Shown here: positions 1 to 43,023 of the stretch, piece after piece
Position numbering within the stretch: position 1 is the first letter of the stretch
How the letters are laid out: each line of letters begins with the position of its first letter
Assembly: GCA_017516345.1 (NCBI GenBank)
Contig: JAFXDC010000002.1
Coordinates: 1-60,113, forward strand
Reading direction: 5' to 3'
Length of the DNA: 60,113 nucleotides
Origin: Clostridia bacterium
Lineage (GTDB): Bacteria; Bacillota; Clostridia; Christensenellales; QALW01
The notes under the pieces: model-generated
Database searches by the model: none
What the model saw: only the letters and a program-made list of their open reading frames with translations
Told to the model about the DNA's origin: nothing
Made by a program: the position numbers and the translations under genes

Positions 1-11
1 AAAAGCATATA

Positions 12-217
12 GTGAAATGTTTTGCTTTTGCAAAACGTGAAATAATGTGCTAACGCACATTGTGAAATATCTCGCCTGCTCGATGTGAAATGAAATTTGC
101 CCACGTCCGCGCAAGCGGACATTTCACATTTGCGTCAGCAAATATTTCACCGTGAAGCGATTTCACTTGCCCGTAAGGGCAAATTTCGTTGCGTACCTGC
201 TCTACGGCAGGTACGCA
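12..217. repeat. Mirrored hairpin array, GTGAAAT/ATTTCAC type
   Basis: Four copies of GTGAAAT (12-18, 37-43, 62-68, 85-91) are followed by three exact ATTTCAC copies (121-127, 144-150, 160-166) and a decayed fourth (183-189, ATTTCGT). Between them sit short perfect hairpins: 19-25/30-36, 44-50/55-61, 105-110/115-120, 128-133/138-143 and 167-172/177-182, each with a 4-nt loop (TTTT, TAAC, GCAA, GTCA, GTAA). An 11-bp stem, 190-200/207-217, closes the right side next to the spoVT 3' end. The heptamers on the two sides are reverse complements, so the whole array can fold as one long stem with side hairpins. The left end may be cut by the window edge. Function is unknown. Confidence 0.85.
190..217 (-). 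terminator. Strong 11-bp hairpin beyond spoVT stop
   Basis: Arms 190-200 and 207-217 pair perfectly around a 6-nt loop. The hairpin lies 16 bases beyond the spoVT stop codon. No T-run follows on the minus strand, so it may be a hairpin of the repeat array or a transcript-end stabiliser, not a classical terminator. Confidence 0.4.
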
Positions 218-21303: not shown

Positions 21304-21337
21304 GATATAAATAAAGATGAATCTGAAAGAGGAAGTC

Positions 21338-22714
21338 ATGAGTCTTAAAAAGAACGACGAGCTTATACTTAATATAGAAAGTCTTGCCAATACCGGCGCG
21401 GGTGTGGCTCACCACGAGGGACAAGCCGTGTTTGTAAACGGTGCGCTCCCCGGAGAGAGGGTGGAGGCAAGAATAATCAAGGCGGCCAAGACCTATTGCG
21501 TTGCAAGGATCAATAATATCCTTGAGGCTTCGCCAAGCAGATGCACGCCAAGGTGCAAGCACTTTCCCCGTTGCGGCGGTTGCGTGCTTCAGCATCTTCA
21601 GTATCCCTCACAGCTTGAATGCAAGCGCTCCGAGGCAGAGCAGGTGCTCCGCCGCATCTCGGGCATAGACTTTAACGTGGAAAAATGCATAGGCATGCCC
21701 GAGCCGTGGCAATATCGTAACAAGGCTCAGCTTCCTGTGGGCGTGGATGCATCGGGTAACGTGGTCATCGGCTTTTATTCACAACGCTCCCACGATATCA
21801 TTGATACCGCCAGTTGTGATATCCAAGGCATGGATATCGCCCCTTACGTTCACAAGGTAAAGCAGCTTATAAAGGAAACGAAAACAAGCGTTTACGATGA
21901 AATTAAGCACAAGGGCTCGCTTCGCCATCTTATGCTGCGAAAAAGCCATAAAAACGGGGATATAATGGTGGTCTTGGTAATAAACGAGCCCCTTAAAAGT
22001 CCCGATGTCTGGCGAGATGAGCTCCTTAAAGCGGGCGCCAAAAGCCTTTGGCTGAACGTCAACAACCAAAAGGGTAATATTATCTTGTCAAACAGATGTA
22101 AATTGCTCGGCGGCGATGCAACCATCACCGATTCCCTCTGCGGCGTGTCCTTCGAGCTTTCACCGCTGTCCTTCTTGCAGGTAAATCCCACTCAGGCGGA
22201 AAGGCTTTATCAGACCGCGGTGGAAATGGCAAGCCTCTCCAAGGACGACACCGTGCTTGATGCCTATTGCGGCATCGGCATCATGACTCAGCTCTTTGCC
22301 CGCTCGGTTAAAAAAGCGGTAGGTGTGGAGATAATCCCCGATGCTATTTCTGATGCTAAAAAAAGCGCCGCGGCAAACGGAATAGATAATGCCGATTTCA
22401 TAGTGGGGGATTGTGCCCTTGAGCTTCCAAAGCTCATTAAGGAAATAGGCAAGGTGGATTGCCTCGTGCTTGATCCTCCCCGCGCAGGCTGTGACCCTAC
22501 GTTGCTTGAAGCGATCGGAAACAGCGATATAAATAAAATAGTCTACGTCTCCTGCGACGTCGCCACCCTTGCCCGCGATTGCGGCATACTCTCATCCTTC
22601 GGCTTTGTCCCCGCCCGCACCGTATGCGTGGATATGTTTCCCCAGACAAAACATGTTGAAAGTGTCGTTTGTCTGATGAGAAAGGAAAGTAATATAGGAC
22701 TGTCGGAATGGTAA
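21338..22714 (+). CDS. rlmD: 23S rRNA (uracil-C5)-methyltransferase, RlmD/RumA family
   Basis: The 458-aa protein has an N-terminal TRAM RNA-binding domain (about 1-60) and an iron-sulfur Cys set (CTPRCKHFPRCGGC). The C-terminal SAM-dependent methyltransferase domain has AYCGIGIMT, DPPRAGCD and catalytic VSCD. It methylates uracil in 23S rRNA; RlmCD-type homologues in Firmicutes may act at two sites. I chose ATG 21338, preceded by AGAGGA, over the ATG at 21317, which has no ribosome binding site. The 3' end is a known integration target for mobile elements in Firmicutes, and a second copy of this end lies downstream. Confidence 0.92.
   Translation: MSLKKNDELILNIESLANTGAGVAHHEGQAVFVNGALPGERVEARIIKAAKTYCVARINNILEASPSRCTPRCKHFPRCGGCVLQHLQYPSQLECKRSEAEQVLRRISGIDFNVEKCIGMPEPWQYRNKAQLPVGVDASGNVVIGFYSQRSHDIIDTASCDIQGMDIAPYVHKVKQLIKETKTSVYDEIKHKGSLRHLMLRKSHKNGDIMVVLVINEPLKSPDVWRDELLKAGAKSLWLNVNNQKGNIILSNRCKLLGGDATITDSLCGVSFELSPLSFLQVNPTQAERLYQTAVEMASLSKDDTVLDAYCGIGIMTQLFARSVKKAVGVEIIPDAISDAKKSAAANGIDNADFIVGDCALELPKLIKEIGKVDCLVLDPPRAGCDPTLLEAIGNSDINKIVYVSCDVATLARDCGILSSFGFVPARTVCVDMFPQTKHVESVVCLMRKESNIGLSEW
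22652..22679 (+). repeat. rlmD 3'-end repeat, genuine copy
   Basis: 28 bases encoding HVESVVCLM match 23125-23152 at 23 positions. This is a candidate integration-site pair. Confidence 0.6.
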
Positions 22715-23058
22715 TTTGGTTGTTTATTTTAACCCTTTTTGTAAACTCGGTCTCTGCTCTCACTATATACAGCGGCGACAAAACACGGTATATGCAAAAT
22801 GCTTTTGATAAAATGCTTGAATCCAAAGGGTTTAGATTTTTACTTAAATTTGATCGAAAAACTACGCAAATATATTTAAGAACTTTCATTGCAAACATTT
22901 TGCTCTTCTGTGCCATATTGCTTGAAATCATGTTGTTTGTCTTAGCTTTAGCAATCACAGACGAAACATTCAAGATAATTTTGAGTTCAGGGATGCTTAT
23001 AGTAGGCTTGCTGATTGGAGCGAGTATAACTGGGATTTGTAGATATAAACATAAATAA
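22708..23058 (+). CDS. Small membrane protein of unknown function
   Basis: The 116-aa protein has an N-terminal hydrophobic segment (about 2-18), a basic middle, and two C-terminal membrane segments (about 63-105). I recognise no family. The ATG overlaps the rlmD stop by seven bases. It lies between the real and the duplicated rlmD 3' end, so it may belong to an inserted segment. The base composition is more AT-rich than rlmD. Confidence 0.6.
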   Translation: MVIWLFILTLFVNSVSALTIYSGDKTRYMQNAFDKMLESKGFRFLLKFDRKTTQIYLRTFIANILLFCAILLEIMLFVLALAITDETFKIILSSGMLIVGLLIGASITGICRYKHK

Positions 23059-23129
23059 AAATATACCTTTGGGCTTTACAATCCCCGTTTTTGGCATAAA
23101 AATATACCTTTTGGTCTTATGACCCACGT
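23056..23129. repeat. 33-bp imperfect direct repeat
   Basis: Units 23056-23088 and 23097-23129 share TAAAAATATACCTTT followed by GG-CTT and an ending of CCCCGT or CCCACGT. The second unit runs into the duplicated rlmD end. Confidence 0.6.
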
Positions 23130-23166
23130 GGAAAGTTTAGTTTGTCTGACGAAGCAGACAAACTAA
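23110..23166 (+). pseudogene. Remnant of an rlmD-like C-terminus
   Basis: The frame reads LMTHVESLVCLTKQTN and a stop. THVESLVCL is the hallmark end of RlmD-family proteins and matches the genuine HVESVVCLM of the gene 470 bases upstream. There is no start or methyltransferase core. The last bases also form a 13-bp hairpin (23136-23148/23155-23167). Confidence 0.6.
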
Positions 23167-23421
23167 AGCGATATAAATCCCTTATGGGATTTGCGATATA
23201 CGCTACATTTTATTCGCGTGCGATATGCCTCTGGCGCGATATGTGCCTGCGGCACGTGAGCGCACTGTGTGCGCATATGGCGTGAGGATTTATATGTAGC
23301 GTGCTTTCTACCACATTCGCCAAAGGCGAACATATCGCTATCTCGCATCGCAAGATAATATCGCATTTGCGGAGCAAATATATCGCGCACCGGAGGTGCA
23401 TATCGCGTTCGCAAAGCGAAC
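23136..23421. repeat. Mirrored hairpin array, GCGATAT/ATATCGC type
   Basis: Four GCGATAT (23168-174, 23193-199, 23220-226, 23236-242) are followed by a decayed ATATGGC (23275-281) and four ATATCGC (23332-338, 23358-364, 23380-386, 23400-406). Between them are hairpins: 23175-181/186-192, 23227-229/233-235, 23243-247/251-255, 23260-265/269-274, 23316-321/325-330, 23365-370/374-379, 23387-391/395-399 and 23407-412/416-421. Loops are mostly 3 nt (TCT, TGC, TGT, AAA, GGA). A 9-bp long-range pair, 23200-208 with 23294-302, closes the centre. It has the same plan as the array at 12-217 but a different heptamer. Confidence 0.88.
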
Positions 23422-23490
23422 TTAAAAGAGGTAATAGGTGATTACTTATACTACAAAATTAAATTGCAGTGAATTCTTTAGGAGGTTTAT

Positions 23491-24321
23491 ATGTTGTTAA
23501 AAGGTCATAGTTCGGTTTCAGGAGATCAACTTAGCGATATTAATAAGACCATGTACATTCCTCTTTACGGGAAGAGCTTCGTAAGTAAAAAGGGGGTCAT
23601 CCTGAAGGATGAGAAGGCGGAGGCAATTTGGGAAAACGAGGGCTTTGAGCTAAACGGAAGGGCAAGCTCAAGGTGGCTTGCTTATTATATGGGTATGCGC
23701 GCCGCGGTTTTTGATAAATGGCTGACGCAAAATTTAACTCTAAACCCGAATGCCACGGTAATACATATCGGGTGCGGGCTTGATAGCCGAGCTTTGAGGG
23801 TAAAGGCTCCTCGCGCAATGTGGTTTGATATTGATCTCCCTCAGGTGATCAAGCAACGGCGAATTTACTATAACGATGACGACAGCTATAAAATGCTTCC
23901 GATCGATGTTACTTCTTCCGATTGGATATCTTCCATTCCAAAGGGTGAGCAAGCGTACGTTGTAATGGAGGGCGTAAGCATGTATCTTACGCAGGCGCAA
24001 TTTAAAGATCTGATGCTTGCAATGGAGGCTCATTTCGATAAGGTCTCGGTTTTGGCGGATTTCTATACCGTGCTTGGTGCCAAAATGTCAAAGCTCAGAA
24101 ACCCGGTGAAAAATGTAGGGGTAAGCACGGTGTTTGGCATAGAAGACCCCGCCGATCTTCAGGGGGAAGCTCTTGCTCTTGAAAAGGAGTATAATATGAC
24201 CCCTGATGAGCTTGTTGCAGAGCTGAATGGGGCGGAAAAAAGCGTGTTTAAAATGCTATATGCGGGTAATATCTCAAAAAAGCTTTATAAAATGTACGAA
24301 TACGTTAAAAAAACGCCTTGA
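23491..24321 (+). CDS. SAM-dependent methyltransferase, LCMT/PPM family
   Basis: The 276-aa protein belongs to the leucine-carboxyl-methyltransferase-like O-methyltransferases (PF04072 type). It has the SAM-binding strand VIHIGCGLDSRA (about 91-102), WFDIDLPQVIKQR and VMEGVSMYL. The acceptor is unknown; bacterial relatives act on polyketides or small carboxylates. It starts at ATG after AGGAGG, 69 bases right of the hairpin array, with no other gene between. Confidence 0.85.
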   Translation: MLLKGHSSVSGDQLSDINKTMYIPLYGKSFVSKKGVILKDEKAEAIWENEGFELNGRASSRWLAYYMGMRAAVFDKWLTQNLTLNPNATVIHIGCGLDSRALRVKAPRAMWFDIDLPQVIKQRRIYYNDDDSYKMLPIDVTSSDWISSIPKGEQAYVVMEGVSMYLTQAQFKDLMLAMEAHFDKVSVLADFYTVLGAKMSKLRNPVKNVGVSTVFGIEDPADLQGEALALEKEYNMTPDELVAELNGAEKSVFKMLYAGNISKKLYKMYEYVKKTP

Positions 24322-42350: not shown

Positions 42351-42379
42351 TTGTTTTTTTGAATTGTTTGTGATATAAT
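42351..42379 (+). promoter_or_regulatory. Promoter of the OLE RNA
   Basis: TTGTTT (42351-42356), 17 bases, TATAAT (42374-42379). Transcription would begin near 42386. Confidence 0.7.
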
Positions 42380-42385
42380 AATTTT

Positions 42386-42965
42386 GGTGGTACAGTATTC
42401 TAGTCAGCATTGGTTGTCTTGAAGGCGGGGCTAAAATATCGTCAAAGGGCATATCGATGAAGTTTCTGGTGCAGGCTTGAAACGCCCAGTTTTGGGTCTG
42501 TGCTGGGAGTTAAGGAGGACGGGCGATCCGCAATGGCATGCGGGCGTTGACCCAGCCTCCGTGGAGACATACTTGGGTAGCTGTCTGCTCAGGCAGATGC
42601 TACTGGGTATGAAGAACCTGCTATGCGGTGGCTTTGCCGCTGTGTACAGTGTAGCCTGTCTTGAAGTGGTAATGAGGGAAATGGGAATACGCAGCTGCGT
42701 CCACGGCCATGGAGCTGTCTGCGATGGCCCTTTGAAATCCTTACTGCAAAAGAGACTAGGGACAGTCTCTGCTGTCGGGGAAATCCCCTAGACTGATCGT
42801 CTGTTATGGATTATAGTGTGGTCTAAGTGGTTATCGAGCGCAAGCGTCAGTGATGCGTTTGTGCGGTCTTTAAAGGGAAACCGCTTCATCGGCGACGGGG
42901 AGCAGACCGTAGGGAAATCCGGCTCGACCTAAGCCGCAAGGTTTACAGGGCAGACTGCCACCTTA
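42386..42965 (+). ncRNA. OLE RNA (ornate large extremophilic RNA)
   Basis: This 580-base non-coding stretch lies directly before oapA in the dxs-nadK-argR-recN neighbourhood where OLE RNAs of Firmicutes are known. It is packed with stems: 42574-42608 (GTAGC..GCTAC around TCAG), 42751-42770 (AGAGACT/AGTCTCT), 42863-42884 (GCGGT/ACCGC) and GGGGAAATCCCC near 42778. Its length is close to the roughly 600 bases of known OLE RNAs. OLE forms a membrane-linked ribonucleoprotein with OapA and OapB and supports growth under cold, alcohol or metal stress in Bacillus halodurans. I call it from gene context, size and structure; a covariance-model search was not run. Both ends are approximate. Confidence 0.88.
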
Positions 42966-43023
42966 TTTTTTATATTTCAAACGGCATATGCCGTATGCTC
43001 TTTTTCACAAGCGGAGAACAATA

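Follow-up and report, generated by a model that had tools for sequence, protein, structure and literature searches.

The hairpin array at positions 23125-23421 of the window, the term used here for the whole 60,113-nucleotide stretch of Clostridia bacterium DNA that was analysed, is a member of a large and previously uncharacterised family of such arrays found in bacteria of the gut and in their phages. The claim of a new class is based on failed membership tests and on a search of the open-access literature (PMC), in which we found no report of arrays of this kind together with IVP. The arrays are placed at gene 3' ends, their loops are of a DNA type, and they are linked to genes of the PF05635 family, whose products, small orphan proteins named 23S rRNA intervening-sequence proteins (IVP, or S23), co-vary with the array heptamers and together with which arrays have spread horizontally. 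We consider it rather probable that array and gene form an IVP-linked mobile DNA-hairpin element, of which the array is the cis-acting DNA part and IVP the protein.

The window array, to which no single strand can be assigned, extends from a copy of the rlmD 3' end on its left to its last hairpin on its right. The rlmD copy (23125-23167, + strand, as for all features of the two halves given below) codes for HVESLVCLTKQTN-stop, matches the layout seen in G013, G085, G187 and L170, where it lies directly on rlmD, and contains the first, outer hairpin of 13 bp with loop ACGAAG (23136-23167). The 4+4 plan of GCGATAT and ATATCGC copies put forward in the earlier note is borne out, with all eight heptamers located and every gap occupied by a hairpin of 3-7 bp. 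The four left heptamers (23168-23174, 23193-23199, 23220-23226 and 23236-23242) are separated by the perfect 7-bp hairpin AAATCCC-TTAT-GGGATTT (23175-23192), by a spacer with a hairpin of 4 bp only (23200-23219) and by the perfect hairpin GCC-TCT-GGC (23227-23235). The centre (23243-23314, no strand assigned) holds the hairpins GTGCC-TGC-GGCAC and GCGCAC-TGT-GTGCGC as well as the conserved motifs GGATTTATAT (23286-23295, complementary to 23171-23180) and CTACCAC. It is followed by the hairpin ATTCGCC-AAA-GGCGAAC (23315-23331) and by the four right heptamers (23332-23338, 23358-23364, 23380-23386 and 23400-23406), between which lie TATCTCGCATCGCAAGATA (23339-23357), a hairpin with five perfect outer pairs in place of which homologues have other hairpins, and the perfect hairpins ATTTGC-GGA-GCAAAT (23365-23379) and GCACC-GGA-GGTGC (23387-23399), both with a c-GNA-g loop. 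The last, outer hairpin is GTTCGC-AAA-GCGAAC (23407-23421). The 9-bp pair that had been proposed for the centre, ACGCTACAT (23200-23208, within the 4-bp hairpin spacer) with ATGTAGCGT (23294-23302), does exist as an alternative pairing but is not conserved in homologues, whereas the pair ATATAAATCC (23171-23180) with GGATTTATA(T) (23286-23295) and the heptamers are largely kept across five aligned sequences.

Dinucleotide shuffling of the whole window, repeated 100 times, produced neither a 4+4 layout of any heptamer nor a chain of at least three consensus heptamers with intervening hairpins. The block holds eight heptamer copies, and no heptamer exceeded five when 23001-23500 was shuffled 300 times. 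The block folds as DNA far better than shuffled sequence on both strands (z = -8.4 on the + strand and -8.0 on the - strand), and the predicted DNA fold pairs left heptamers with right ones. The defined boundary that the earlier note had hoped to see is present on the left, where five genomes show a sharp edge at 23125, the homologues in G013, G085 (two copies), G187 and G385 having a common left edge at query position 25-27.

The other array that the same note had reported in the window, at 12-217 and of the same plan, is real and consists of four GTGAAAT copies facing three ATTTCAC copies plus ATTTCGT. Its heptamer had been regarded as unlike that of the 23125-23421 array, but the two are rather variants of one loose consensus. 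The right half of the 12-217 array is the Rfam Gut-1 motif (RF01706), matched on the minus strand with 63.8 bits, above the membership cut-off of at least 50 bits applied to the covariance model, whereas the 23125-23421 array matches weakly, with 29.4 bits, and falls below it. Gut-1 has been described as an orphan non-coding RNA, from human-gut sequences only (Weinberg et al. 2010, PMC2864571). Within the present family it accounts for a single half of the arrays built on GTGAAAT; the whole is a symmetric DNA array whose loops are of a DNA type, whose heptamers vary and to which a protein is linked. Several contigs of the window's bin, G000, start or end at arrays (window 1-217; C18:1, the end of C23, C47:1 and C68:1), and a nearly identical array has different flanks in C13 and C18; hence the arrays break assembly.

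A family search across relatives, named bacterial genomes and phage contigs yielded the heptamers GTGAAAT, ATGAAAT, GTGATAT, GTTATAT, GTGATGT, GTGAAGT, TCGATAT, ACGATAT, ATGAATT and others, with a loose consensus of about RYGAWRT. Scanning with this loose consensus recovered 192 half-chains in 2.8 Mb, against none in shuffled sequence, and the named genomes in which true arrays were recognised belong mostly to gut Clostridia (Oscillospiraceae, Ruminococcaceae and "Clostridia bacterium"). Near-identical copies are dispersed in genomes, and in the richer genomes Gut-1-type matches number about 10 to 59 per genome, dispersed and intergenic. Left and right heptamers change together: of 62 arrays, 48 have the same heptamer on both sides, where permutation gave a mean of 16.2 and never more than 26. 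The earlier note had asked whether the two sides always remain complementary; they do in these 48 arrays, but pairing is not an obligatory rule, since one-sided arrays exist in high copy; variants include one-sided arrays, arrays with the halves in R-then-L order and sets of tens of near-identical copies. The one-sided ATGAAAT arrays of G085 (L329-L348), which number more than 20 and are near-identical, form composite units with GTCATCCTGAGC-type repeats, which nearly always adjoin them. An integron-like cassette system was considered for these high-copy arrays and rejected, as they are ordinary intergenic repeats between operons. The 7-bp inverted boxes and single-strand hairpin do recall integron attC sites, but the boxes follow about RYGAWRT rather than the GTTRRRY/RYYYAAC of attC, and there are eight of them with hairpins in between.

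The hairpins themselves bear on the nucleic acid in which they act. Following the Rfam view of Gut-1, the arrays would be structured non-coding RNAs or 3'-UTR elements, with hairpins acting in the transcript, for instance in mRNA protection or termination, and with IVP binding RNA. Besides the Gut-1 matches of both window arrays, this reading can draw on the many arrays in transcribed DNA downstream of tRNAs, rlmD or phage genes, on the excision by RNase III of 23S rRNA intervening sequences (IVSs) from RNA (PMC4990558) and on a preference for 3' ends, the arrays being mostly intergenic and enriched in convergent gaps (22/69 versus 33/203 background gaps). The composition of the hairpins speaks against it. 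Among 670 distinct spacers, 610 are hairpins, 511 of them perfect and 99 with one or two mismatches, and the 3306 pairs of the whole family include 26 G·U and 24 A·C, so that the G·U excess of an RNA is absent. Loops are strand-polar throughout the family: the strand that reads AYWTCRY carries c(GNA)g or c(GNNA)g, and the opposite strand their exact complement. This bears out the idea of DNA mini-hairpins that the earlier note had drawn from several triloops. A d(GNA) loop closed by a C-G pair is an extra-stable DNA loop (PMC5815330, PMC6479982), and so is d(cGNNAg) according to Nakano 2002 as cited in PMC8373063. The third base of the cGNNAg tetraloops (23 A, 22 T, 17 C and 2 G) is a pyrimidine as often as a purine, which argues that these are not GNRA loops of RNA. 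G·A mismatches on the AYWTCRY strand number 63, against 8 of the opposite polarity, and DNA nearest-neighbour energies favour this strand by 83:3. RNA energies also favour it, by 71:19, and a slight excess of G·T over A·C on the same strand (32:18, p=0.06) counts against the DNA reading. The folded strand has no preference for the coding strand (61:49), half-array orientation showing no tie to neighbouring genes. Given that the stable loops of the left and right halves lie on opposite strands, a single transcript cannot explain the design; duplex DNA with extruded hairpins, or each half folding on its own strand, can. From base composition and pairing, the hairpin evidence points to DNA over RNA as the acting form, and we hold the RNA reading to be unlikely.

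The linked protein family that the earlier note had thought worth looking for does exist. Across 101 related genomes, PF05635 was found in 19 of the 24 array-bearing genomes and in 6 of the other 77 (p=3e-11), with array-positive genomes defined by Gut-1 matches and most genomes being metagenome bins. Among 55 IVP loci retrieved for neighbourhood tests, an array lies within 1 kb (nearest 39-175 bp) of 21 of the 41 IVP genes in array genomes and of 1 of the 14 elsewhere. The strict scan detected no array within 1 kb of the remaining 20 of the 41, several of which have, on inspection by eye, arrays of other heptamers upstream. In a test free of any consensus, 21 of 40 IVP genes had an inverted array immediately upstream, as did 16 of 368 control genes (p=1e-14); a tRNA gene stands ahead of 16/37 IVP genes versus 6/55 control ORFs. 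Beyond proximity, IVP protein identity correlates with heptamer similarity (rho 0.52, reached in none of 2000 permutations), and the nearest IVP relative in another genome has the same heptamer in 15 of 18 cases, the heptamer labels of the IVP loci having been assigned partly by eye. Part of this agreement could be due to common descent of whole elements. No IVP was found in five of the array genomes, which are possibly incomplete, and none with the ATGAAAT heptamer was found in G085 despite its more than 20 half-arrays of that type. Many arrays stand without IVP, the window itself has no IVP gene and its own genome has four others. The array-IVP link emerged from the IVP side only, and clustering of the genes around 55 named array loci gave no shared family, probably because these are solitary arrays without IVP.

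Further evidence for movement of the array-IVP unit comes from the rlmD locus. The host gene in the window is an rlmD/rumA-type 23S rRNA methyltransferase gene (21317-22714, + strand; PF05958, 3e-19, TRAM). Full-length homologues of the window array occur in other families of the order, are 73-84% identical and have a sharp edge; in G013, G085 and G187 the array follows rlmD and precedes IVP, with the rlmD stop codon inside the first hairpin. Between G013 and G187, rlmD is 41% identical and the adjacent IVP 94%, which argues that the array-IVP unit moves; on these identities, it most likely entered the same rlmD site horizontally. A PF05635 ORF, such as IVSs carry, is present in these three homologues and absent from the window copy. 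What the window has is a second rlmD 3' end, then the array, then AAAAGAGGTAATA (23422-23438, + strand), retained from the ribosome-binding region of the homologues' IVP gene; no IVP ORF is left, and a carboxyl-methyltransferase-like gene stands after the array in its place. No array was detected beside rlmD in the congener G001.

The 3' end of rlmD resembles an integration hotspot, with small cassettes and copies of ATACCTTTTGGAGTCTTGACCCACGTCGAGAG between them (window 22652-23135; L379 8384-8434; L382, L383, L384 and L385), and in the window an att-like motif, ATACCTTTTGGTCTTATGACCCACGTGGAAAG (23099-23135, + strand), joins the upstream cassette to the array. On this account, a tyrosine recombinase might use the array as an accessory (arm-site) region when integrative elements insert site-specifically at the rlmD 3' end. 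The att-like duplicates of the rlmD 3' end that flank cassettes downstream of rlmD would fit, as would the frequent position of arrays behind tRNA genes, but no integrase was recognised among the rlmD cassettes inspected and most arrays are found at other sites, phage operons among them. Integrases occur in 96 of the 101 genomes and are thus uninformative about a link with arrays. We regard a role as integrase arm sites as the least probable explanation of those considered.

Outside rlmD, arrays often start at a stop codon or just past a tRNA terminator. Phages with occupied and with empty sites differ at defined intergenic points, in agreement with the precise boundaries expected earlier: in one phage group the terminase-portal gap measures about 15 bp or less in most relatives, and two of them have an array there. 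Several arrays stand between structural genes, right after stop codons, in the phage contigs L289 (5008-10325), L220 (1428-1571 and 4352-4522) and L520 (6494-6776), and relatives of array-bearing phage contigs have other short dispersed repeats at those points. Of the target-site duplication that marks transposon-derived MITEs, one clear 18-bp case was seen, in L220 (4322-4545), where the direct repeat CCCGGCTAAGCGAGCCGC flanks the array; otherwise such duplications are at background level. The second half of CCCGGCTAAGCGAGCCGC doubles as the 5' arm of the first hairpin of that array.

Hairpins can in principle be perfected by template switching at the replication fork, in which case the arrays would be a neutral mutational product and IVP a passenger in the same 3'-end niches. 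Homologues do swap whole hairpins, which stay perfect, the outer hairpin takes one arm from the flanking gene and the same phage gaps hold other short repeats. Such a process leaves unexplained, however, the uniform and co-varying heptamer, the linkage and co-variation with IVP and the transfer of array and IVP between families, and it appears to us decidedly unlikely.

Dispersed, intergenic, hairpin-based and single-strand-polar arrays in many copies, with a proposed trans-acting protein, also resemble the REP/BIME palindromes moved on single-stranded DNA by Y1 (RAYT/IS200-type) transposases, and the GTCATCCTGAGC-type repeats adjoining the G085 arrays add to the likeness. REP hairpins have a conserved 5' tetranucleotide (GTAG type) at the foot; in the present arrays the hairpin flank is a 7-bp box on both sides. 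The architecture of the arrays differs from that of REPs, and their partner is a four-helix bundle without known catalysis. Y1_Tnp is not associated with arrays (10 of 24 array genomes have it and 27 of the other 77, p=0.63), no Y1 was found in the array-rich G001, G002, G013, G019 and G059, and the 55 named array loci lack a common neighbour gene family. An origin by Y1 transposition, already disfavoured, is in our estimation very improbable, and a RAYT/Y1 transposase was rejected as the driver for want of co-occurrence with arrays in the 24 versus 77 genomes. Reverse transcriptase was likewise rejected, RVT_1 being absent from 17 of the 24 array genomes, including ones rated 98-100% complete.

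In the IVP-linked element that we favour, the full unit would consist of the 3' end of a target gene (rlmD, a tRNA with its terminator, or the stop codon of another gene), the array of heptamer-separated hairpins with complementary left and right copies, and the IVP gene. The acting form of the hairpins would be DNA, from which they are extruded when it is supercoiled or single-stranded, and each half would fold on its AYWTCRY strand, the one with c(GNA)g or c(GNNA)g loops. An IVP multimer would read the heptamer-hairpin units as extruded DNA, from which a heptamer that is uniform within an array, matched across its sides and tracking the IVP would follow, and might then bring the element and the target hairpin into contact, leaving the chemistry to host nucleases and polymerases. 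Solitary arrays such as that at 23125-23421 would be copies that lost or never had IVP. We know of no catalytic site in IVP, which hence could not alone cut or join DNA; we infer that it binds the array and drives movement, and that host enzymes provide the strand chemistry. More tentatively, and with rather more doubt than confidence, we propose that IVP/S23 proteins are DNA-hairpin (cruciform) recognition factors of an undescribed class of mobile elements without transposase or reverse transcriptase, in which each IVP lineage reads its own heptamer by a protein-heptamer code, and of which rRNA intervening sequences and the Avd of diversity-generating retroelements (DGRs) would be derived branches.

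Both of these relatives offer points of comparison. IVSs with an IVP ORF have palindromic surroundings and have been proposed, but never proven, to be mobile elements (PMC4990558). They have the PF05635 family and the palindromic surroundings in common with the arrays, but the latter lie outside rRNA genes, behind tRNAs, rlmD or phage genes, have a 4+4 heptamer-hairpin layout and include dispersed copies without the ORF. In DGRs, the target requires a supercoil-dependent DNA hairpin or cruciform near the stop codon, with a GRNA loop and a stem of free sequence (PMC3240598), and homing requires Avd as well (PMC10053308). A structural model of IVP (pLDDT 97) matches both the S23 pentamers 2rld and 2gsc and DGR Avd (4dwl), with TM scores of 0.81-0.84, so that the linked protein has the four-helix-bundle fold of Avd. 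The arrays, whose hairpins may be comparable to that of the DGR target, differ from it in having many hairpins with heptamers instead of one, and loops that are also of 3 nt and, as GNA or GNNA, not limited to a purine at the second base as in GRNA. By this analogy, DGR homing may be the nearest experimental parallel to the proposed IVP-array mechanism and provides a lead, and the parallel suggests a possible reason why DGRs require both Avd and a target hairpin with a GRNA loop.

Proteins of the PF05635 family occur widely and their structures show pentamers, but no function is known to us. The arrays give them their first candidate DNA partner, a defined DNA structure whose copies can be counted and whose heptamer can be read, so that PF05635 function becomes directly testable. 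Gut-1, listed in Rfam as an RNA, is reinterpreted as half of a DNA element, and a large repeat class that fragments gut-genome assemblies and is present in phage operons has been identified.

Three IVPs gave no match in PHROGs. Eighteen IVP genes were once catalogued within cas loci (PMC3936711), and hairpin arrays adjoining IVP may have been mistaken for CRISPR arrays there. At some loci (L772, L774, L788 and L796-L799), tandem short repeats (ATTATTCATT, GTTGAAA and GAATGCA), with some inverted copies and no large hairpins, lie upstream of IVP and are perhaps a second array type for PF05635. The window also contains a full-length OLE RNA (RF01071, 475 bits) at 42371-42977 (+ strand).
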